Of a stretch of 64,000 nucleotides of DNA, positions 5,469 to 34,806 are shown in pieces. The translations under genes were made by a program, and so were the position numbers. Source of the stretch: Pseudomonas laurentiana (lineage in GTDB: Bacteria; Pseudomonadota; Gammaproteobacteria; Pseudomonadales; Pseudomonadaceae); the NCBI RefSeq assembly GCF_014648275.1, contig NZ_BMQU01000012.1:1-64000 (forward strand). Reading direction: 5' to 3'. Every line of letters begins with the position of its first letter. The first letter of the stretch is position 1. The notes under the pieces were generated by a model that saw nothing but the letters and a program-made list of their open reading frames with translations, made no database searches and was not told the origin of the DNA.

Positions 5469-8400
5469 ATGACCCAGACATCCGTGCGCAGCGTCTGCCC
5501 CTATTGTGGCGTCGGCTGCGGCATTGTCATGACCGTGGCCGAAAACCGGGTAATCAAGGTCAGCGGTGACAAACAGCACCCGAGCAACTTCGGGCGGCTT
5601 TGCACCAAAGGACAGACCTGCCATCAACCACTGCGCGAGTCGGGACGCATGGAACAGGCCTTTGTCCGTCACCAGCGTCAGCGCGACCCCGTGCAGACCG
5701 CGATCGACCTGGCGATCGACGAGGCAGCCCAGCGCCTGAAGGCCATCCTCATCGAGCATGGCCCGGATGCCCTGGCGTTTTACGTTTCCGGGCAGTTGTC
5801 GCTGGAAGCCCAATACCTGATCAACAAACTGGCCAAAGGCTTTGTGCGCAGTCGGCATATCGAGTCCAACTCACGGCTGTGCATGGCCAGCGCCAGCAGT
5901 GGCTACAAACTCTCGCTGGGCGCGGATGGGCCGCCGGGCAGCTATGAGGACTTCGACCGCAGCGAACTGTTCTTTGTCATTGGCGCCAACATGGCGGACT
6001 GTCATCCGATCCTGTTTCTTCGCCTGCTTGACCGACGCAAGGCCGGTGCCCGGCTGATTGTGGTCGATCCCCGGCGTACTGCGACAGCGGAAAAGGCCGA
6101 CCTGTTCCTGCAGATCAAGCCCGGTACCGACCTGGCGCTGCTCAACGGTTTACTGCACCTGTTGTTGGTCAACGGTGCGGTTGATACGGCGTTCATTGAA
6201 CGTTTCACCGAGGGCTGGGAGGCCATGCCGGACTTCCTGCAGGACTATGCACCGGCACAGGTGGCGCAGGTGACCGGTCTGGCCGAAGCCGATATCCGCA
6301 AGGCTGCCGAGTGGATCGGCCAAGCGCCAGAGTGGCTCAGTTGCTGGACCATGGGCTTGAACCAGAGTATTCACGGCACCTGGCAGACCAATGCGCTGTG
6401 CAACCTGCACCTGGCCACCGGGGCGATCTGTCGCCCTGGCAGCGGGCCGTTCTCCCTGACGGGGCAGCCCAATGCCATGGGCGGACGCGAGATGGGCTAC
6501 ATGGGGCCGGGTTTACCCGGCCAGCGTTCGGCACTGGTAGAGGCCGACCGGCATTTCGTTGAGGACCTCTGGCAGGTGCCGCGTGGCAGTCTGCGGGCCG
6601 CGGCCGGAGACGGTACCGTAGCCGTGTTCGAGGGCATGGCCGCCGGGCATATCAAGGCCTGCTGGATCATCTGCAGTAACCCGGTGGCCAGTGTCGCCAA
6701 CCGTCAGCAGGTGATCGACGGCCTGCAAACGGCTGAACTGGTCATCACCCAGGACGCGTTTCTCGATACCGAAACCAATCGCTACGCCGACATTCTTCTG
6801 CCCGCGGCGCTTTGGGCCGAAGCCGATGGGGTAATGGTCAACTCCGAGCGTAACCTTAGCCTCACCGAACAGGCCGTCGAACCTCCGGGCGCGAGCCTGC
6901 CGGATTGGCAGCTCATCGCCCGAATGGCCTGTGCCATGGGCTATGAGGCAGCGTTCAGTTATACCTGTGCCGAGCAGATTTTCGATGAGCTGCGTCAGGC
7001 CTGGAACACCGACACCGGTTACGACCTGCGCGGTATCAGTTACCCCTTGTTGCGCCAGGCACCACGGCAATGGCCCTGCGCACCCGGTCAGGCGGATACA
7101 CGGCACCCGCAACGCTACCTGAATGATGGCGTCAGTCAGCGCTTGCACACAGATGCTCAGGGCCAGTGCCCGCCGCTCGCCTTTCCAACGCCTGGCGGTA
7201 AAGCCCGCTTCTTTGCTCGGCCCTACCTGCCTCCCGCGGAGCTACCGGACGAAGCCTACCCGTTGGTGCTCAATACCGGGCGGGTTCAGCACCACTGGCA
7301 CACCCTGACCAAGACCGGCAAGGTCGCCGTGTTGAATGCGCTGGAGCCTGGCCCGTACCTGGAAATTCACCCCGAAGATGCCCGGCAACTGGGCATTACT
7401 GAGCACGATCAGGTGCAGGTGCGCTCCCGGCGTGGAGAGGCGTTGTTGCCGGCGCGCTTGAGTGAGCGGGTACTGCCGGGCAACTGCTTCGCCCCGTTTC
7501 ACTGGAATGATGCCTATGGCGAGCGTTTGGCGATCAACGCGCTGACCAGTGATGCCATTGACCCGGTTTCCCTGCAACCGGCGTTCAAATACTGCGCAGT
7601 GGCCCTGAGCCGTGTCGCGGGTGAACGTATTGCCGCTGTTGAACTACCGGCCCACACGCTTCAGGAGTCCGCGACCATGCCGATCGACACACTCAGCCAA
7701 CTGCTCGGCCTGAACAACCGCGTTGAACTGGCGTTGGCCGAGGATGAACACCTGTATATGCAGGGCTATTTGCTGGGCCTGCGTAACAGCCATCTGGACG
7801 GCGTGCCGAGTTTGCCGGTCAGTGCGCCACTGGCACCGGCGCGGCGCCTGTTGGTTGAAGGTCTGCTGGCGGGCCTGTTTTCGCGCAGTACGCCGGTACA
7901 GGCCCCTGCCATCCAGGCTATGGAGCCTGTCGAAGCCAGCCGCCATTGGCTGCTTTGGGCGTCCCAGACCGGTAACGGCCAGGCGCTGGCGCAACATTGT
8001 GCGCAGCGCTTGCGAGAGGCTGGCCTGGCAGTTCAGGTAAGCAGCATGGAGCAGGTCAGCCTTGAGCAGGTGAGCAACGCTGCCAGCCTGTTGCTGGTGG
8101 CGAGCACGTTTGGCGATGGTGAGGCACCGGACTGCGCCAAGGCCTTTTGGCAGGCCCTGCAGGCCGCGTCCGCCCGCCGCTGCACCGGGCTGCGTTACGC
8201 GGTATTGGCCTTGGGAGACTCCAGTTACGCCGAGTTCTGTGGTTTCGGTCGCAAGCTGGACCAGCGTCTGGCTGAGCTTGGTGGTGTGCGCCTGCTGGAG
8301 CGGGTCGAGTGTGAGCCCGACTTTGACGAGCCGGCTGAGCAGTGGCTGGGCACGTTGGTCACGGCCCTTGGGCAGGCTTCAATGGCGGCTGCGCCAGCGG

Positions 8401-9533
8401 TCGCGCTTCAAGCGGCGACCGTGCCAACCTTCAGCAAGCAGCAGCCGTTGCACGTCAGGGTGGTGGAAAACCGTCTGCTCAACGCACCCGGTGCCGCCAA
8501 GGAAACCCGGCAAGTGGTGTTTGATCTTGCGGACAGCGGCCTGACGTATCAGGCGGGTGATGCCCTGGGCGTCTGGCCGCGCAATTGTCCGGCACTGGTC
8601 GAAGAGCTGCTCAGTGCCATGAAGCTTGATGGAGAGGTGAGTGTCAGCCTCAAGGGCCAGCCACCCATGCCGTTGCGTAGCGCACTGCGCGAGCGGCTGG
8701 AGATCGCTCGAATCACTCCGGCCATACTCGAACAGGTTGCCCGCTGCAGCGCTGATCCTGAGTTGCAACGCCTGCTGGACCCGGTGCACAAAAACGAGTT
8801 GCAGGGCTGGCTATGGGGGCGGCAACTGGTCGATCTGCTGCAGCAGTTTCCCGTAAGCATGACGCTCGATACCTGGCTGCGCCTGCTCAAACCCTTGCAG
8901 CCGCGCTTGTACTCCATTAGCTCAAGCCCGTTGTTGCACCCGCAGCAGGTTCACCTGACGGTGTCGACGGTGCGCTACCGCCAGCGTAAAGGGGTGTGCT
9001 CGACCTTCCTTGCTGACCGTGCCGAAGCCGGGCAGGTGGGGATCTTTGTACAGCCCTCGGCTGATTTCCACTTGCCGAGCGATGATACGGCACCGGTGAT
9101 CATGGTCGGGCCCGGGACGGGGATCGCACCGTTCCGGGCGTTTCTTCAGGAACGCCAGGCGCGCGGCGCCAGTGGGCGCAACTGGCTGCTGTTTGGCGAG
9201 CAGCGCGCTGACAGTGATTTTTACTACCGTGACGAACTGCTGGCCTGGCAACGCGATGGCCACCTGACGCGGCTCGACACGGCCTTCTCCCGTGACCAGG
9301 CAGACAAGGTCTATGTGCAGCAGCGCATGCTGGAGCAGGGCGCCGAGTTGTGGCACTGGCTGGAGGCGGGCGCGTACTTCTACGTTTGTGGCGATGCCGG
9401 ACGCATGGCGCGGGATGTGGACGCGGCGCTCCAGCAGGTGGTGGCGGAGCACGGTGGAATGAGCGCCGAGCAGGCCAGTGATTATGTTGCGGGGCTAGGT
9501 CGGGCCAAACGCTACCGGCGAGATGTGTACTGA
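5469..9533 (+). CDS. nasA: Assimilatory nitrate reductase fused to a CysJ-like flavoprotein reductase
   Basis: A 1354-residue fusion that should take electrons from NADPH to nitrate in one chain. Residues 1-710 form a molybdopterin (bis-MGD) nitrate reductase: a 4Fe-4S motif CPYCGVGCG near residue 10 with a further Cys in RLCTKGQ, then the MopB core and a molybdopterin-dinucleotide-binding domain (from about 595). After a linker come a flavodoxin domain (ASQTGNGQALAQ, about 837), an FAD domain (RLYSISSSP, about 1145) and an NAD(P)-binding domain (GPGTGIAPFRAF, about 1214), ending AKRYRRDVY as in sulfite reductase flavoproteins. The ATG at 5469 has AGGAG eight bases upstream; a GTG at 5466 is possible. 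Such fusions are known in Pseudomonas. The protein is cytoplasmic. Confidence 0.93.
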   Translation: MTQTSVRSVCPYCGVGCGIVMTVAENRVIKVSGDKQHPSNFGRLCTKGQTCHQPLRESGRMEQAFVRHQRQRDPVQTAIDLAIDEAAQRLKAILIEHGPDALAFYVSGQLSLEAQYLINKLAKGFVRSRHIESNSRLCMASASSGYKLSLGADGPPGSYEDFDRSELFFVIGANMADCHPILFLRLLDRRKAGARLIVVDPRRTATAEKADLFLQIKPGTDLALLNGLLHLLLVNGAVDTAFIERFTEGWEAMPDFLQDYAPAQVAQVTGLAEADIRKAAEWIGQAPEWLSCWTMGLNQSIHGTWQTNALCNLHLATGAICRPGSGPFSLTGQPNAMGGREMGYMGPGLPGQRSALVEADRHFVEDLWQVPRGSLRAAAGDGTVAVFEGMAAGHIKACWIICSNPVASVANRQQVIDGLQTAELVITQDAFLDTETNRYADILLPAALWAEADGVMVNSERNLSLTEQAVEPPGASLPDWQLIARMACAMGYEAAFSYTCAEQIFDELRQAWNTDTGYDLRGISYPLLRQAPRQWPCAPGQADTRHPQRYLNDGVSQRLHTDAQGQCPPLAFPTPGGKARFFARPYLPPAELPDEAYPLVLNTGRVQHHWHTLTKTGKVAVLNALEPGPYLEIHPEDARQLGITEHDQVQVRSRRGEALLPARLSERVLPGNCFAPFHWNDAYGERLAINALTSDAIDPVSLQPAFKYCAVALSRVAGERIAAVELPAHTLQESATMPIDTLSQLLGLNNRVELALAEDEHLYMQGYLLGLRNSHLDGVPSLPVSAPLAPARRLLVEGLLAGLFSRSTPVQAPAIQAMEPVEASRHWLLWASQTGNGQALAQHCAQRLREAGLAVQVSSMEQVSLEQVSNAASLLLVASTFGDGEAPDCAKAFWQALQAASARRCTGLRYAVLALGDSSYAEFCGFGRKLDQRLAELGGVRLLERVECEPDFDEPAEQWLGTLVTALGQASMAAAPAVALQAATVPTFSKQQPLHVRVVENRLLNAPGAAKETRQVVFDLADSGLTYQAGDALGVWPRNCPALVEELLSAMKLDGEVSVSLKGQPPMPLRSALRERLEIARITPAILEQVARCSADPELQRLLDPVHKNELQGWLWGRQLVDLLQQFPVSMTLDTWLRLLKPLQPRLYSISSSPLLHPQQVHLTVSTVRYRQRKGVCSTFLADRAEAGQVGIFVQPSADFHLPSDDTAPVIMVGPGTGIAPFRAFLQERQARGASGRNWLLFGEQRADSDFYYRDELLAWQRDGHLTRLDTAFSRDQADKVYVQQRMLEQGAELWHWLEAGAYFYVCGDAGRMARDVDAALQQVVAEHGGMSAEQASDYVAGLGRAKRYRRDVY

Positions 9534-27747: not shown

Positions 27748-28461
27748 ATGCGTCCACTGCCACCGCGCGCAGTAACAGCCATATGCCAGGCGTTGCAGGA
27801 ACAGATCGAGCATGGCCTGCTGGCCGCAGGCTGCAAGTTGCCGGCCGAGCGCAAGCTCAGCGAGGTGTTCGATACGACGCGTATTACCCTGCGCGAAGCC
27901 CTGGTGCAGCTTGAAGCCTTGGGGGTGATCTATCGCGAGGAGCGCCGTGGTTGGTTCGTTGCTCCCGAACGATTGACCTATGACCTGATCGAGCGTAGCC
28001 ACTTTCACGCCATGGTGCGTGCCCAGGGGCGGGTACCGGCTACCGAGTTATTGTCGGCACGCCTTCAACCAGCGCCCGCCGCAATCTGTGCGCGTTTGCA
28101 ACTGTCGCCGCTGTCCAGCGTGATTCAGATCTGTCGGTTACGGCGTATCGACGGGCGTGCAGTGCTGTATGCCGAGCACTACCTGAACCCCGATTACTTT
28201 CCGGATATCCTCAGCTTCGACCTGGGCCAGTCTCTGACCGAGTTGTACGCCGAGCATTACGGGATCCAGTACGGTCGGGTGTGCTTTGAGATTCTGCCTA
28301 CGGCATTGCCCGTCGCCGCTGGCATGGCCCTGAAAGTGTCGTCAGGTAGCCCCGGGCTACAGATCACCCGGGTCAACAGCGACCAGCACGGGCGCTTGAT
28401 CGACTGTGACCTTGAGTATTGGCGGCATGACGCGATTCGCATTCGTGTCGATGCCGGTTAA
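27748..28461 (+). CDS. GntR-family (HutC/UTRA) regulator of the ABC operon
   Basis: A 237-residue regulator. The N-terminal winged HTH spans residues 10-72 (GLLAAGCKLPAERKLSEVF, TRITLREALVQLEALGVI), the GntR signature. The UTRA effector domain is at about 85-232 (ICRLRRIDGRAVLYAEHYL; TRVNSDQHGRLIDCDLEYW). It is divergent from the ABC operon, with a perfect palindrome just before its ATG at 27748 (a TTG at 27745 is less likely). It probably represses the transporter until its ligand, or a product of it, binds the UTRA domain. It converges with the mscS remnant, overlapping by four bases. Confidence 0.88.
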   Translation: MRPLPPRAVTAICQALQEQIEHGLLAAGCKLPAERKLSEVFDTTRITLREALVQLEALGVIYREERRGWFVAPERLTYDLIERSHFHAMVRAQGRVPATELLSARLQPAPAAICARLQLSPLSSVIQICRLRRIDGRAVLYAEHYLNPDYFPDILSFDLGQSLTELYAEHYGIQYGRVCFEILPTALPVAAGMALKVSSGSPGLQITRVNSDQHGRLIDCDLEYWRHDAIRIRVDAG

Positions 28462-30616
28462 GCATTGTTGCCCTCGGCACCACCACCGGCTGTGATCACC
28501 TGCACCGACAGGCGCGGAGTGGCCAGGTCCAGGCCGGCTTCATCGAGCTCGCGCTTGAGCGCCAGGTTGAACGCCCTTGAAACCTCCCACTGCTTGATCG
28601 GTGCGGTCTTGAATCGCGCCCGCAGGATCGCCGAGCCGGACTCGAAGCTTTCCACCCCTTGCAGCTCCAGCGGCGACCAGATACTGCGCCGTTGCAGCGG
28701 GTCATTGCGCAGCTTCTGGCCAACATCGCGAACCAGGTCGATGGCCTGGTCGATGTTCATGCTGTGGGGAATGGCGATGCGGAAGATCGCGTAACCGAAC
28801 TCCCGCGAGTAGTTCTTGATGCTTTTGATCTCGCTGAACGGAATGGTATGGACGATGCCATCGATATCGCGCAGGCGTACGGTACGGATAGTCAGGCCTT
28901 CAACGGTCCCCAGGTGGCCGCCGACATCGACATAGTCGTCGATGGCCAGGGAGTCTTCGATGATGATGAACAAGCCGGTGATCAAATCGGCTACCAGCGA
29001 TTGCGCGCCAAAACCGATGGCCAGGCCGATGACCCCGGCACCGGCCAGCAGCGGTGTGACGTTCATGCCCATGTTGGCCAGGGCGACGATCACCGCGATG
29101 ATGAAAATGGTCACGAACAACACGTTGCGGATCAGCGGCATCATGGTTTGTGCGCGGGCATTGGCGGCCCCTTTACGCGAGCGCGTCAAGGCATGATGCA
29201 CGGCGGTGTCGCTGAGTATCCACACCAGCCACGCCGCAAGCAGTGTGCCGCTCAGGCCGAACAGGCGCATGGCGGCTTCATGGCCGTCGCCCTCGGCAAA
29301 ACCGATCAGCGACAAGCCCCAGACCCGAAGCCCCAATTCGATGAACAGCAACCAGATCGTCAGGTATAGCCAAAGCTTTTCAGGCGTTCGTAGTACAGCG
29401 GCTGACGGCGGTTGCTGCGGTGTGGTTTTGCAGCATGGCGACGGACCAGGCCGTTGATCACGATGCACAGCACCAGCAGCACCGCGCACATCAGCGACTG
29501 ACGTAGCGCAGTGCTGGTGTCACCTGCCGAAATGAATGTGGCAAACAGTGAGACAGCCACCAACACCAACGCCGGCAGGTACCAGAGACTGCCGAGAATC
29601 TCGATGGTGTCGCTCAGGGCCCGGCGGGTCAGACGCCGCGACAGGGGTTGGTTACGAATCAGGTGGGCAATAGGACGCCGGAATCGCAGTATGAACAGCC
29701 CGCTGGAAATGGCCGCCAACACATTGGCCAGTGTGGCCAGGCTATGCGCCAGGTGAGTGCCTAGTGCAACGGCCAGGCGCGGGTCGTTCATCGCCTCGCC
29801 GAAGGCGGCAAAACTGCCGATCAGCCACAGCGGACGAAAAGCGCGACGCCGCAGAATGTGCAGGGCGTGATGGCGGTGAGGGCCATCGAGCAGGGAAAAG
29901 GCAATCACGCAGATGGCCGAGAAACAGGTACCGACCACCAGTGCATAGGCCAGCACCATGGCCATGGATTTGCCCAGTGAAGAGGGCAGTGCAAAGCTCA
30001 GGTACACGGTGATGATCAGTGCTACCAGCCAAGGGCCGAGCTTGCGCAAGGCGAAGAGCACCAGGTCCCAGGTCTTGGGATGCTGGGGTAGCTCTTCGGT
30101 CAGACCAAAGCGCAGTCGCACCCGATGCCCGACCCAGATAAACCCGTAGGCCAACAGGCTCCAGAGGGCGATGACCGCCGCAAAGCCGAACAGAATGGCG
30201 GGTAACTCCTGTGCCGGCACCTTCAAGGCCGCCAACTCATCCTGGGCTTGGTCCAGCTCTTGCGACCAGAGGGTGAAGGGGCTGGCGTCACCACTGAACT
30301 GCTTTTCCAGGCTGGCCACGGTATTGCCGATCACGCCCAGTACACCTTGCTCTACCGATGGCTGCGCCTGTTTGGTGCTGTCGCGCAACTTCTTCAGATC
30401 GGCCAGCAAATTGGCGCGTTGCTGATCGTTTTCCAGGCGCTTGATGACTTCGTCCAGGGACTGGCTCAGCGGCTCGGTGGCCTCGGGTTGGGCCTTGCTG
30501 CCGCCGAGCAAGCCCGGCAAGCCTGCCGCCTGGGCCAGGCCGACGGGCGCCAGAAAAATCAGAAACAGCGCGAAAAAGCGGAAAAAGGCGGGCACTGGCA
30601 GATCAACCTCAGGCAA
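28458..30616 (-). pseudogene. MscS-family mechanosensitive channel (YbiO-like), frameshifted
   Basis: Two overlapping frames make one MscS-type protein of about 719 residues. The first (30616 to 29360) has a signal peptide (LFLIFLAPVGLAQA), a coiled region and several membrane segments, and stops after ERLKSFGYT. The second continues with LTIWLLFIELGLRVWG and holds the MscS pore and beta domain: ANMGMNVTPLLAGAGVIGLA, GFGAQSLVADLITG and a vestibule region. Adding one G (one C on the coding strand) at 29363-29364 restores ...FGYT-LTIWLL..., so the likely lesion is loss of one base in a short run. The gene is either broken or the base is a sequencing error. The start is uncertain: TTG 30616 or GTG 30595, the latter with GAGG upstream. 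Confidence 0.8.
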
Positions 30617-30642: not shown

Positions 30643-30807
30643 TCAGTTCAGTTTCTCAAGGATCTTCCAGGCCATGATACCGATCATGCCCAGCGTACCG
30701 ATCCACATCATCAGCACCCCGATATTGCGCTCACGCATGTTGAAGCCGACGGTCAACAGGATCAGGCCGGCGATCACCGGGAGGAACATCATCTGGAACT
30801 CTGACAT
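30643..30807 (-). CDS. Small inner-membrane protein
   Basis: A 54-residue protein with two predicted membrane segments (MMFLPVIAGLILLTVGF and VLMMWIGTLGMIGIMAW) joined by a short charged loop (NMRERN). I recognise no named family. The ATG at 30807 has AAGG upstream; the longer frame to 30897 has no ribosome site. It lies just upstream of the MscS-type gene (27 bp to its possible start) and may share its transcript. Confidence 0.7.
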   Translation of the reverse strand: MSEFQMMFLPVIAGLILLTVGFNMRERNIGVLMMWIGTLGMIGIMAWKILEKLN

Positions 30808-30927
30808 GCGCAAGGACCTTCTCAAGGCTCGGAAATTCATGGGGCAAGCATAGGCCGGAATCGTCAAGCCAGGGTTGATGGAGATCAGCGCCGGCACGGC
30901 CCGTGCTGATTCTAACAGCAGAGAAAC

Positions 30928-30958
30928 TTCCTACATCAATATCAGACCGCGTCTGATA
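30928..30958. promoter_or_regulatory. TTCCTACA box and palindrome upstream of the secreted-protein gene
   Basis: TTCCTACA (30928-30935) resembles one half of the EvgA/BvgA-type response-regulator box. Four bases later TATCAGAC-CGC-GTCTGATA (30940-30958) is a perfect 8-bp inverted repeat. Both lie about 120 bp before the start of the next gene in an otherwise gene-free stretch (30808-31074). Confidence 0.4.
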
Positions 30959-31074
30959 CAGCGCCCAAGGCTTCCTGCCGACTGGTTAAAAGCGTCATGA
31001 GCGATTGATGAATCGCCCTGACGCGGACATGTAGCAACAGCTGTGTGTCATTAACCTTTGAAAGGATGTCGCGA

Positions 31075-31512
31075 ATGAAAAATATCAAGAAGGTGCTGTT
31101 GGGTTCTTTTGTGGTGTTGGGGTGCTCGGTGGGTGGGGCGGTACAGGCAGCTAATCTGGCAACTGTTACGGTTGTAAATGAAACCAGTGCAGAGGCGGTG
31201 TACGGCTATGAATATTTTTCTGGAAGTTTAAATACCCCGCCTACCAATATTGTACAGAATTCCAGTATTGGTTTTATTCATACCAGCGGAAGTGATATTG
31301 CGTCCGGTATGCGATTTACTTACGCAGTGGGCTCGAAAAAATGCCGGTTCTCGGCATCGCACTTGGTTGAAATTCATCTGGGCGGATACCTGCCTAGCTG
31401 GAAAAAAGATGCAGTGTCTATTGGTTCGAGCCGTGCAACCTGTACCGCGACATTGGTAAAAGCGGACTCGAATCTTCCCTTCAATTACACCGTGCAGTTC
31501 TCTATTAAATAG
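31075..31512 (+). CDS. Small secreted protein of unknown function
   Basis: A 145-residue protein with a clear Sec signal peptide (basic start MKNIKK, hydrophobic core, VQAA cleavage near residue 25). The mature part is rich in Ser, Thr, Val and Gly, suggesting beta structure, with two cysteines (KKCRFS and ATCTAT) that could form a disulfide. I know no family. Base composition is visibly lower in GC than the flanking core genes. ATG 31075 has AAAGGATG upstream. It is 60 bp ahead of the four-gene array, separated by a strong hairpin, and probably arrived with it. Confidence 0.75.
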   Translation: MKNIKKVLLGSFVVLGCSVGGAVQAANLATVTVVNETSAEAVYGYEYFSGSLNTPPTNIVQNSSIGFIHTSGSDIASGMRFTYAVGSKKCRFSASHLVEIHLGGYLPSWKKDAVSIGSSRATCTATLVKADSNLPFNYTVQFSIK

Positions 31513-31514
31513 TC

Positions 31515-31550
31515 ATGCAGCTAGGCACTTGAAGAAGTGCCTCGCTGCAT
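31515..31550. other. Strong hairpin between the secreted-protein gene and the array
   Basis: ATGCAGC-T-AGGCACTT, loop GAAG, AAGTGCCT-C-GCTGCAT: fifteen base pairs with one mismatch. There is no T-run on either strand, so it is not a standard intrinsic terminator. It may be an mRNA-stability or processing element. It ends 22 bases before the first array gene. Confidence 0.7.
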
Positions 31551-31572: not shown

Positions 31573-32310
31573 ATGAAAATAGGCGCAATTCCATCATCGG
31601 TAGCTATTGTTAGAACGCCACCAAAACCAGAACCGACAGAAGAAGCTTCAACCTCAAGCACGAAGGAAAGTGTAAGTCTTTCAGTCGAGGGATTGAAATT
31701 GAGCGCCAGCATGGCGCAGGTCGATGCCCAGAATGATCAAGCCAGGGATAAATACGAAAGAATTTACGGTGCCCATGGCCTTGGTAAAACAGCCTTTTTA
31801 CGGGTGAGTATGTATGGCGCAGAAGCTTTCAAACAGCCCGAGGTGTCGGCAGATTGTTCACCTGAACAACTGTCCCGAAAGCAGATGTCCTTTGATTTTC
31901 TACTGTCTATTCATGAGGGAAGGGGTAAACCGGCTAACCCGTTTGCAGGGCTATCCCGGCCAGAGCTTGCTGCGATCGTGGAAGACGAAAGCGGTGAATA
32001 TACGGATGAAGAGCGCTATGTGGCGCTTCATGCAAAAAGTGACCTGGACTTCGAGTGTTTTCAGGTAGTAGCCAGCTTTATTTCCTCTGGAGGTGATGCT
32101 CGCCCTGCTTATCGCAGCTATATAGAGTTACTGGATAGCCTCAGCCCTGTAGAGCGTTTTCGATATCCGGCGGGTGATCGCGAGATTGCTGAACGTCTTC
32201 TCGCCCAGGAAGAACAGCGCCTCGGCAAACTCCCAGCCGAGTTCTCTATCTGGGAACTTATGGCTCAGGAGGGGCGCGGCCTGAACAAGGAAATACCAGC
32301 AGCGGGTTGA
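31573..32310 (+). CDS. Tandem paralog 1, unknown function
   Basis: A 245-residue soluble protein without signal peptide or membrane segment. It has a Pro/Ser/Thr-rich, probably disordered start (to about residue 30), then VSLSVEGLKLSASMAQVDAQ and a helical body. Shared motifs are NPFAGLSRPELAAIVEDESG (about 122-141), SPVERFRYPAGDRE (about 191-204) and LGKLPAEFSIWELMAQ near the end. GGAGG six bases before the ATG (31573) is stronger than in the other copies, and its upstream flank is unlike the 97-bp spacers, so this is the promoter-proximal, possibly founding, end of the array. I recognise no characterised family. Confidence 0.8.
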   Translation: MKIGAIPSSVAIVRTPPKPEPTEEASTSSTKESVSLSVEGLKLSASMAQVDAQNDQARDKYERIYGAHGLGKTAFLRVSMYGAEAFKQPEVSADCSPEQLSRKQMSFDFLLSIHEGRGKPANPFAGLSRPELAAIVEDESGEYTDEERYVALHAKSDLDFECFQVVASFISSGGDARPAYRSYIELLDSLSPVERFRYPAGDREIAERLLAQEEQRLGKLPAEFSIWELMAQEGRGLNKEIPAAG

Positions 32311-32407
32311 TGTGTTTCAGTGATTGGCACTGTACGCGTCGGTCGGGATTACGCTAGGTCGTTGCTACCGACTGCGTAATGGTATTCGCCAGGTTAGGGA
32401 GAACAAC

Positions 32408-33145
32408 ATGAAAATAGGCACCGTTCCATCATCGGCAACTATTGTTAGAACACCACCAAAGCCAGTGCCGACAGAAGAAGCTTCAACCCCAAGCACGAAA
32501 GAAAGTGTAAGTCTTTCAGCTGAGGGGTTGAAGTTGAGCGCCAGCATGGCGCAGGTCGATGCCCAGAGTGATCAAGCCAGGGATAAATACGAAAGAATTT
32601 ACGGTGCCCACGGCCTTGGTAAAACAGCCTTTTTACGGGTGAGGATGTATGGCGCAGAGGCTTTCAAGCAGCCCAAGGTGTCGGCAGATTGTTCACCTGA
32701 ACAACTGTCTCGAAAGCAGAAGTCCTTTGATTTTCTACTGTCTATTCATGAGGAAAGGGGTAAACCGGCTAACCCGTTTGCAGGGCTGTCCCGTCCGGAG
32801 CTTGCAGCGATCGTGGAGGACGAAAGCGGTGAATATACGGATGAAGAGCGTTATGTGGCGCTTCATGCCAAAAGTGACTTGGATTTCGAGTATTTTCAGG
32901 CTTCAACCAGCTTTATTTTTCCAGGGGGCGATGCTCGCCCTTTTTACCGTAGCTACATAGAGTTACTGGACAGCCTCAGCCCTGTAGAGCGTTTTCGATA
33001 TCCGGCGGGTGATCGCGAGAAAGTTGAGCGCCTGCTTGCCCAAGAAGAACAACGCTTCGGCAAACTCCCTGCCGAGTTCTCCATTTGGGAACTTATGGCG
33101 CAGGAGGGGCATCGTCTGGACAAGGAAATGCCAACAGAGGGTTGA
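32408..33145 (+). CDS. Tandem paralog 2, unknown function
   Basis: A 245-residue paralog, close to copy 1 through residue 160 (KYERIYGAHGLGKTAFLRVR, SADCSPEQLSRKQ) and differing mainly at FEYFQASTSFIFPGGDARPFY. Its tail (GDREKVERLL ... EGHRLDKEMPTEG) groups with copy 4, while copies 1 and 3 share a different tail. The ATG at 32408 follows AGGGAGAACAAC, a weaker ribosome site carried by the repeated spacer. No catalytic motif is evident. Confidence 0.8.
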   Translation: MKIGTVPSSATIVRTPPKPVPTEEASTPSTKESVSLSAEGLKLSASMAQVDAQSDQARDKYERIYGAHGLGKTAFLRVRMYGAEAFKQPKVSADCSPEQLSRKQKSFDFLLSIHEERGKPANPFAGLSRPELAAIVEDESGEYTDEERYVALHAKSDLDFEYFQASTSFIFPGGDARPFYRSYIELLDSLSPVERFRYPAGDREKVERLLAQEEQRFGKLPAEFSIWELMAQEGHRLDKEMPTEG

Positions 33146-33242
33146 TGCGTTTCAGTGGTTGACACTGTATGCGTCGGCCGGGATTGCGGTAGTTCGTGGC
33201 TGCCGACTGCGTAATGGTATTCGCTAGGTTAGGGAAAACAAC

Positions 33243-33971
33243 ATGAAAATAGGCACCGTTCCATCATCGGCAACTATTGTTAGAGCGCCACCAAAGCCAG
33301 CGCCGACAGAAGACCTTTCAACCTCAAATACGAAGGAGAGCGTAAGCCTCTCGGCGGAGGGGTTGAAGTTGAGCGCCAGCATGGCGCAGGTCGATAGCCA
33401 GAATGATCAAGCCAGGGATAAATACGAGCGTATCTATGGTCGTTACAATTTTGGAGACAAGCTGTGGGCGCAAATCAGGACGCAAGGTAGGGACACGCCG
33501 GTCATACCTGAGTCTCCCAATGATTACTCTGATGAGCAGTTGACCCAGATAAAAAAGTCGTTTGAATTTCTACTGATTATCAATGAGCAGCGAAAAATTA
33601 CGGACAATCCATTTGCAGGGTTGTCACGCTCAGAGCTTGTCGCCATTGTTGAAGATGAAACTGGACGATACACCGACGTAGAGCGTTATACAGCGGAGTA
33701 TGCAAAAAGTGCACTGGACTTTAATTACTTTAGCGCAGCCATGAATTTTGGTAACGATGGACGTCCCCTGTCTCGCGCTTACATCGATTTTCTGGACAGT
33801 CTCAGCCCTGCAGAGCGCTTACGATTCCCTGCGGGTGATCGTGAAATGAGCGAGCGCCTTCTCGCCCAGGAAGAGCAACGCCTCGGCAAACTCCCAGCTG
33901 AGTTCTCTATTTGGGAACTTATGGCTCAGGAGGGGCGCAGCCTGAACAAGGAAATACCAGCAGCGGGTTGA
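33243..33971 (+). CDS. Tandem paralog 3, divergent middle
   Basis: A 242-residue paralog. Residues 1-63 and the last 50 are close to the other copies, but the middle is strongly changed (YGRYNFGDKLWAQIRTQG, PVIPESPNDYSDEQLTQIKK, SALDFNYFSAAMNFGNDGRP). The landmark NPFAGLSRSELVAIVEDETG is kept. Conserved ends with a variable centre suggest recombination or diversifying change at a recognition surface. The tail (WELMAQEGRSLNKEIPAAG) is almost the same as in copy 1. The ATG at 33243 follows AGGGAAAACAAC. Function unknown. Confidence 0.8.
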   Translation: MKIGTVPSSATIVRAPPKPAPTEDLSTSNTKESVSLSAEGLKLSASMAQVDSQNDQARDKYERIYGRYNFGDKLWAQIRTQGRDTPVIPESPNDYSDEQLTQIKKSFEFLLIINEQRKITDNPFAGLSRSELVAIVEDETGRYTDVERYTAEYAKSALDFNYFSAAMNFGNDGRPLSRAYIDFLDSLSPAERLRFPAGDREMSERLLAQEEQRLGKLPAEFSIWELMAQEGRSLNKEIPAAG

Positions 33972-34068
33972 TGCGTTTCAGTGATTGGCACTGTACGCGT
34001 CGGTCGGGATTACGGTAGGTCGTTGCTACCGACTGCGTAATGGTATTCGCCAGGTTAGGGAGAACAAC

Positions 34069-34806
34069 ATGAAAATAGGCACCGTTCCATCATCGGCAAC
34101 TATTGTTAGAACACCACCAAAGCCAGTGCCGACAGAAGAAGCTTCAACCCCAAGCACGAAGGAAAGTGTAAGTCTTTCAGTCGAGGGATTGAAGTTGAGC
34201 GCTAGCATGGCGCAGGTCGATGCCCAGAATGATCAAGCCAGGGATAAATACGAAAGAGTTTACGGTACCCATGGCCTTGGTAAAACGGCTTGGTTGCGGG
34301 TGAGGATGTATGGCGCAGAGGCTTTCAAACAGTCAGAGGTATCGGCAGAGAACTCGCCTGAGCAACTGTCTCGAAAGCAGAAGTCCTTTGAGTTCCTACT
34401 GTCCATTCATGAAGGAAGGGGTAGGCCGGATAATCCATTTGCAGGGCTATCCCGTTCGGAGCTTGCGGCGATCGTAGAGGACGAAAGCGGTGAATATACG
34501 GATGAAGAGCGTTATGTAGCGGATTATGCAAAGGATGGGCTGGATTTCGAGTGTTTTCAGACAGCAGCCAGCTTTATTTTTTCTGCGGGTGATGCGCGCC
34601 CGGTTTATCGCGGCTACATAGAGTTACTGGACGGCCTCAGCCCTGTAGAGCGTTTTCGATATCCGGCGGGTGATCGCGAGAAAGTTGAGCGCCTGCTTGC
34701 CCAAGAAGAACAACGCCTCGGCAAACTCCCTGCCGAGTTCTCTATCTGGGAGTTTATGGCGCAGAAGGGGCAGCGTATGGACACGGATGTACCAGAAGAG
34801 GGTTGA
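34069..34806 (+). CDS. Tandem paralog 4, unknown function
   Basis: A 245-residue paralog whose first 60 residues and upstream 97 bp nearly match copy 2 and its spacer. The body differs moderately (YGTHGLGKTAWLRVRM, VSAENSPEQLS, DYAKDGLDFECFQTAASF). The tail is WEFMAQKGQRMDTDVPEEG. It is the last copy; a short piece of spacer follows before sequence unrelated to the array. It converges on apeB, 105 bp away. It has no signal peptide, membrane segment or recognisable catalytic motif. Confidence 0.8.
   Translation: MKIGTVPSSATIVRTPPKPVPTEEASTPSTKESVSLSVEGLKLSASMAQVDAQNDQARDKYERVYGTHGLGKTAWLRVRMYGAEAFKQSEVSAENSPEQLSRKQKSFEFLLSIHEGRGRPDNPFAGLSRSELAAIVEDESGEYTDEERYVADYAKDGLDFECFQTAASFIFSAGDARPVYRGYIELLDGLSPVERFRYPAGDREKVERLLAQEEQRLGKLPAEFSIWEFMAQKGQRMDTDVPEEG

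Follow-up and report, generated by a model that had tools for sequence, protein, structure and literature searches.

A stretch of 64,000 nucleotides (nt) from Pseudomonas laurentiana (contig NZ_BMQU01000012.1, positions 1 to 64,000, hereafter the window) encodes four related proteins in tandem and, directly upstream of them, a small, putatively secreted protein; our working names are FAM for the family of four and SEC for the secreted protein. We find that this array is one end of a frequent, mobile and unnamed two-gene module, larger than first stated in an earlier note on the same DNA, and that SEC lies nearly always directly upstream of FAM, the two proteins co-varying. We propose, with a probability of roughly 0.37, that the four FAM genes form the variable part of a secreted system of two genes, in which SEC would dock on a membrane and FAM would be its cognate partner outside the cell.

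Linkage, distribution and mobility of the SEC-FAM pair

The linkage was assessed in 60 regions around matches to a SEC profile (E 1.2e-23 or better), chosen regardless of FAM, with one match (G295:C13) left out. FAM was the next gene downstream on the same strand for 60 of the 61 SEC genes in these regions, in 59 cases within 300 bp and with a median gap of 84 bp; at the sole exception, locus L108, an exporter directly follows SEC. The distances among SEC proteins and among FAM proteins were strongly correlated (Mantel r 0.92 for 74 pairs and 0.89 for the 42 less similar ones, against permutation maxima of 0.19 and 0.39), a correlation to which species descent contributes. This is our strongest result, and it bears out the earlier suggestion that the small secreted protein belongs with FAM. 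The number of FAM copies per SEC varies: there are four in the window, three in L037, and two in 6/60 regions, one of which (L078) also has two SEC.

The tie from FAM to SEC is weaker than the tie from SEC to FAM. Among 16 regions first chosen for their FAM matches, 12 have SEC and four (L046, L048, L049 and L051) do not. A later set of 18 regions was chosen mostly for odd FAM (long open reading frames (ORFs), or members of group D, relatives of about 240 aa without a long disordered start, such as L048) and in two cases for weak SEC; FAM is found in 16 of them, accompanied by SEC in two, by SEC2 in four and by neither in ten. SEC2 and FAM2 are our names for another secreted protein and another partner-like one, which adjoin some FAM relatives. 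The loci with FAM but without SEC lower our confidence both in the proposed secreted pair and in the swappable-partner reading given below. Among six weaker SEC relatives, FAM adjoins the one at L141, a permease, SEC2 and FAM2 are found at L168 and L169, and L144, L146 and L176 hold none of these partners, an exporter being present at L176.

SEC2 and FAM2 occur together with FAM at the group D loci L134, L137 and L138, while at L131 part of FAM is fused to FAM2 and SEC2 is present. An IncP plasmid from biosolids (L150, MN366361.1, 3041-7079) encodes a Tn3 transposase, FAM, SEC and a 791-aa FAM-FAM-FAM2 fusion, the FAM2 part being assigned by eye. The possibility that SEC2 is a diverged SEC, and FAM2 a diverged FAM, found no support in hmmsearch or hhalign. 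Profiles of SEC2 and FAM2 detected no further case in the window, in L036-L057 or in L066-L125.

Neither the four FAM of the window nor SEC matched any Pfam or NCBIfam model at E up to 1, and three further FAM matched no Pfam family at E 0.5, so that FAM is indeed a family without a curated model, as had been supposed. Among PDB sequences there was one chance-level row for copy 3 and none for the FAM or SEC profiles, and the three proteins scanned against PHROG gave one weak row (copy 3, E 0.17). An anti-phage defence role was rejected, as none of the six SEC and FAM proteins scanned with PADLOC had a match; a phage origin was likewise rejected, since FAM copy 1, the one protein searched there, had no match among 50,697 phage records at E 0.01. 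In the literature, no account was recognised as describing a SEC-FAM pair. PIP-47Aa, a 295-aa protein from P. mosselii (PMC5787824), was considered.

Relatives of FAM copy 1 are present in 88 of 399 Pseudomonas genomes (E 0.01), and matches to the SEC profile in 97 of the 399 (E 0.001), about 60 at 1e-20 or better by eye. Broader SEC and FAM profiles both went without a match at E 1e-4 in 320 other gammaproteobacterial genomes sampled. FAM is also carried by plasmids: four of 72,556 records were found with copy 1 (E 1e-3), and five with a relative from the genome of the window (1e-5), namely two from Shewanella, the IncP plasmid, and one each from Rahnella and Citrobacter freundii. The SEC of the window matches the two Shewanella plasmids, on which SEC, FAM and a shorter FAM adjoin an ISPa33 transposase and a Tn3 transposase. 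The plasmid SEC is identical letter for letter to that of the Pseudomonas locus L043, and the first FAM is one letter apart by eye. The module is thus mobile.

Two further observations concern these plasmids. Upstream of SEC, two more unknown genes, for proteins of 241 and 155 aa, accompany it both on the Pseudomonas chromosome (L043, 11049-12249) and on the Shewanella plasmids (L147, 6337-7537), having moved along with it; the 155-aa protein has a similar start block, SVKISMAGL. The Rahnella plasmid (L149, CP042359.1) encodes a SEC2-like protein, an ATP-binding cassette (ABC) ATPase, a FAM piece, a permease, TolC and HlyD, followed after the exporter by a lysozyme-domain protein (phage lysozyme, with a weak pesticin match).

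Organisation and evolution of the array

The features of the array are collected in Table 1.

Table 1. Positions in the window of the SEC-FAM array and of the elements close to it
Feature	Positions	Strand	Basis
Possible operator TTCCTAC-N6-ATCAGAC with inverted repeat ATCAGAC-CGC-GTCTGAT	30928..30957		By eye, upstream of SEC
SEC, predicted Sec-type secreted protein, 145-aa precursor, two conserved Cys	31075..31512	+	ORF, alignments, model and fold match
Stem-loop between SEC and FAM copy 1	31515..31550	+	60-nt gap, -25.7 kcal/mol, z -4.1
FAM copy 1, 245 aa	31573..32310	+	Intact ORF
FAM copy 2, 245 aa	32408..33145	+	Intact ORF
FAM copy 3, 242 aa, divergent centre (codons ~64-190)	33243..33971	+	Intact ORF
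FAM copy 4, 245 aa	34069..34806	+	Intact ORF

Copies 2, 3 and 4 are 89%, 68% and 83% identical to copy 1. Identity at this level between four paralogues excludes chance, and the divergence among the copies makes a simple assembly repeat unlikely. The three spacers between them are 97 bp each and similar to one another, and by eye a plausible ribosome site precedes every gene. FAM is predicted to be a soluble helical protein of about 27 kDa with a disordered start; hydropathy revealed no transmembrane-like stretch in the four copies, and 1/93 family members exceeded the threshold. The earlier description of four tandem paralogs of 242-245 aa, most conserved in the first ~63 aa and at the C-terminal end and devoid of membrane segments, is therefore accurate. 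Its variable centre applies to copy 3 alone: in windows of 30 codons over codons 61-190, this copy shares 42-73% nucleotide identity with the other three, whereas copies 1, 2 and 4 share 80-94% among themselves. A conserved helix-loop-helix, YDxSGxFTxxER, seen in the model and the alignment, was considered as an EF-hand and rejected, its first ligand position not being acidic.

The earlier note had also inferred a diversification of the centre, to be tested for positive selection in residues 65-190; our results do not support diversification by selection. Nonsynonymous (dN) and synonymous (dS) divergence were estimated by the Nei-Gojobori method in three regions for the 15 pairs formed by the four copies of the window and two from P. 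defluvii. In no comparison did dN exceed dS, and dN was lower in every region with a computable dS, so that positive selection in the centre was rejected; dS was saturated in five pairs, which involve the centre of copy 3. Compared with every other copy, this centre has saturated synonymous sites and dN of 0.38-0.42, while the ends of the same copy have dS of 0.21-0.73. In copy 4, most of the centre shares 98-100% of its DNA sequence with the centre of P. defluvii copy 2 (dS 0.047), whereas the start is just 81-82% identical to the same gene (dS 0.51) and much closer to window copy 2 (dS 0.10). These contrasts between centres and ends indicate that the ends are homogenised within the genome and the centres kept or exchanged; the copies are mosaics formed with gene conversion, not the product of positive selection. 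As a whole, the earlier interpretation holds for an uncurated family and for its association with SEC, and finds no support for diversification by selection; FAM may, as the note suggested, be an effector, an immunity protein or a recognition factor.

The gap between SEC and FAM holds a stem-loop, which is kept in P. defluvii (z -4.5), while the folding of the FAM-FAM spacers is unremarkable (z -0.6 to -1.6). Gaps of 40-200 nt between SEC and FAM fold more strongly (mean z -2.47, 52 gaps) than control gaps separating predicted ORFs on the same strand (mean z -1.44, 103 gaps; Mann-Whitney p 2e-5, a value too small because the sequences are related). No regulatory element shared by SEC genes was found in their upstream sequences: the TTCCTAC/ATCAGAC element is confined to the window-type site, since the TCCTAC/TCAGAC pair occurs without mismatch upstream of 7/76 SEC genes, all seven of them at that type of site. 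It may serve the divergent ORF at 30643-30897 instead of SEC.

To the left of SEC, the minus strand carries an 84-aa ORF, a 418-aa ORF without a Pfam match and an MscS-type ORF, and to the right of the array lies an M18 aminopeptidase gene. The neighbourhood is the same in P. defluvii WCHP16, where the array comprises SEC and two FAM genes in place of four; the long aligned blocks flanking the array are 90.7% (left, extending into the array) and 94.2% (right) identical in DNA. The overlapping ORFs of 343 aa (MscS-type channel) and 418 aa on the minus strand at 28458-30616 correspond to one 722-aa ORF in P. defluvii (L052); the gene may be broken in two in the window, or its sequence there may be in error.

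SEC, its putative exporter and the proposed mechanism

The SEC start was placed at 31075, where AAGGA precedes ATG, the longest ORF beginning at 31045. A hydrophobic start is present in 74/81 aligned SEC rows, and the positions of the Cys pair are kept in 80/81 and 79/81. SEC is predicted to have a Sec-type signal and a disulfide, and the model is a beta-sandwich resembling aegerolysins and Cry34. The aegerolysin profile PF06355 did not match SEC, and the SEC of L044 gave just two weak unrelated rows in Pfam. When 12 SEC rows were compared by hhalign with two Pseudomonas aegerolysins, only 7 columns aligned, at a probability of 0.1. This profile comparison gave no sign of a relation to aegerolysins such as RahU of P. 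aeruginosa; PF06355, present in 3/149 genomes of the genus, is far rarer than SEC.

A full MacB-type exporter set (LolD-like ATPase, MacB/FtsX permease, TolC-like and HlyD-like proteins) is present in 17/60 regions, with the ATPase alone in three more. In 12 of the 17 it directly follows FAM, four have it upstream of SEC, and the last is L108, without FAM. The window locus has no exporter set. The same genome has one on contig C24, where a second, distant FAM-SEC-FAM set (L044, G000:C24, 49608-51848) lies divergent from it. Exporter linkage is clustered on a tree of 93 FAM rows (27 linked), requiring 7 changes against 23.5 after shuffling, with 0/500 shuffles as low, although near copies help. 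The permease family extends well beyond the module, being found in 126/369 genomes (E 1e-40), and 14/18 of its loci that were read lack SEC and FAM. At L129 (G335, 6992-8488) a FAM-FAM ORF lies between what we take, from sequence starts, to be chemotaxis-like and flgB-like genes; the exporter set and secreted protein of G018 (L177) presumably adjoin flgBCD-like genes, and the exporter of G051 (L176) is presumably near a flagellin-like gene. Such placements may reflect a hot spot or a functional link.

SEC resembles the enterotoxin STII, a substrate of MacAB-TolC, in being small and, by prediction, Sec-type and Cys-paired; it is the larger of the two. The exporters of SEC-FAM loci differ from MacAB-TolC in having ATPase and permease as separate genes, and FAM is without a counterpart there. 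Among the LolD-like models, the L044 ATPase scores against those of the darobactin exporter ATPase (DarD) and of the lactococcin 972-type ABC transporter, with both scores under the curated cut-offs. SEC also resembles the small component of aegerolysin two-part systems (Cry34Ab1/Cry35Ab1, AfIP-1A/1B, ostreolysin or pleurotolysin A with PlyB) in its predicted beta-sandwich and in the adjoining gene for a larger partner; AfIP-1A/1B and the Bacillus and Clostridium pairs are described in an excerpt of PMC9505663 as lying in the same direction or in one operon. It differs from them in its Sec-type signal and two conserved Cys. FAM, predicted helical and often present in several copies, has no MACPF, Toxin_10 or three-domain Cry domain, the seven FAM scanned against Pfam lacking any such pore-forming partner domain.

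The mechanism we propose draws on two published analogies, STII, which passes through Sec and then MacAB-TolC (excerpt of PMC5985334), and the neighbouring aegerolysin pairs (PMC9505663, likewise in part). SEC would cross the inner membrane by Sec and be released by a tripartite exporter of the MacB type, as is reported of STII; judging from its predicted fold, it might then attach to a target membrane by way of a lipid or receptor. FAM would reach the outside without Sec and act at the place where SEC docks. Where one SEC has several FAM, these would be able to replace one another, having in common the ends required for docking. Owing to the stem-loop that follows its gene, SEC would be made in excess over FAM. 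More tentatively still, the whole may be an undescribed, widespread and mobile Pseudomonas secretion system, in which one lipid-docking protein of aegerolysin fold is combined with swappable helical partners that share their ends and recombine their centres: FAM, and elsewhere FAM2 with SEC2.

Alternative explanations and significance

SEC could instead be a secreted toxin or a bacteriocin, with FAM as a cytosolic partner that confers immunity, acts as a chaperone or controls dosage; the tandem FAM would then form an immunity array against SEC variants. We consider this less likely than the secreted pair, even if one SEC recurrently has several FAM, FAM looks cytosolic by sequence (92/93 without a membrane segment), the stem-loop would yield much product and little partner, and FAM without SEC could be orphan immunity genes. 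A protein with neither signal peptide nor membrane segment would be badly placed against a toxin acting from outside, and the FAM ends are conserved and the centre variable, whereas SEC is single.

Somewhat less probable is that the pair serves not as a weapon but as a surface or lipid-handling system, in which SEC binds a surfactant or envelope lipid, FAM regulates or scaffolds, and the exporter handles lipid. Its patchy distribution, carriage on plasmids beside transposases and changing copy number are unlike housekeeping, and the module or exporter parts inside flagellar clusters (L129, L176, L177), which could favour it as do the loci with FAM but without SEC, may mark an insertion hot spot. 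It would fit the lipid binding of aegerolysins, including the weak rhamnolipid binding reported for RahU (PMC7985367, in part), and the export of siderophores by MacB-type pumps (excerpt of PMC5985334).

The VSLS.EGLKLSAS block at the FAM start, a mere lead for a docking or export segment, resembles the start of FlgM from the window strain, where a Ser/Thr-rich stretch precedes GETVHLSQEAQQLQ, compared with KESVSLSVEGLKLS in FAM. FAM2, unrelated to FAM by hhalign, nevertheless has a similar start stretch and V[ST][IL]S-type block ahead of its own C-terminal domain. That FAM is exported like FlgM, its disordered start directing it to the type III apparatus of the flagellum, and that SEC is secreted independently, is improbable, as the motif, although found in strict form in 13/93 FAM against 1/327 other proteins, is short, missing from 80/93 FAM and perhaps merely a common helix cap, and the linkage with SEC would go unexplained.

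SEC is present in about one in four of the Pseudomonas species sampled, and yet SEC and FAM of the window match no Pfam or NCBIfam model. MacB-type exporters of a common group may have SEC as a substrate. Should SEC dock on membranes, as would be expected from its predicted fold, FAM would represent a new class of partner for aegerolysins, and the tandem copies, with strains holding one to four, would form a natural set in which to find the part of the partner that sets the target.
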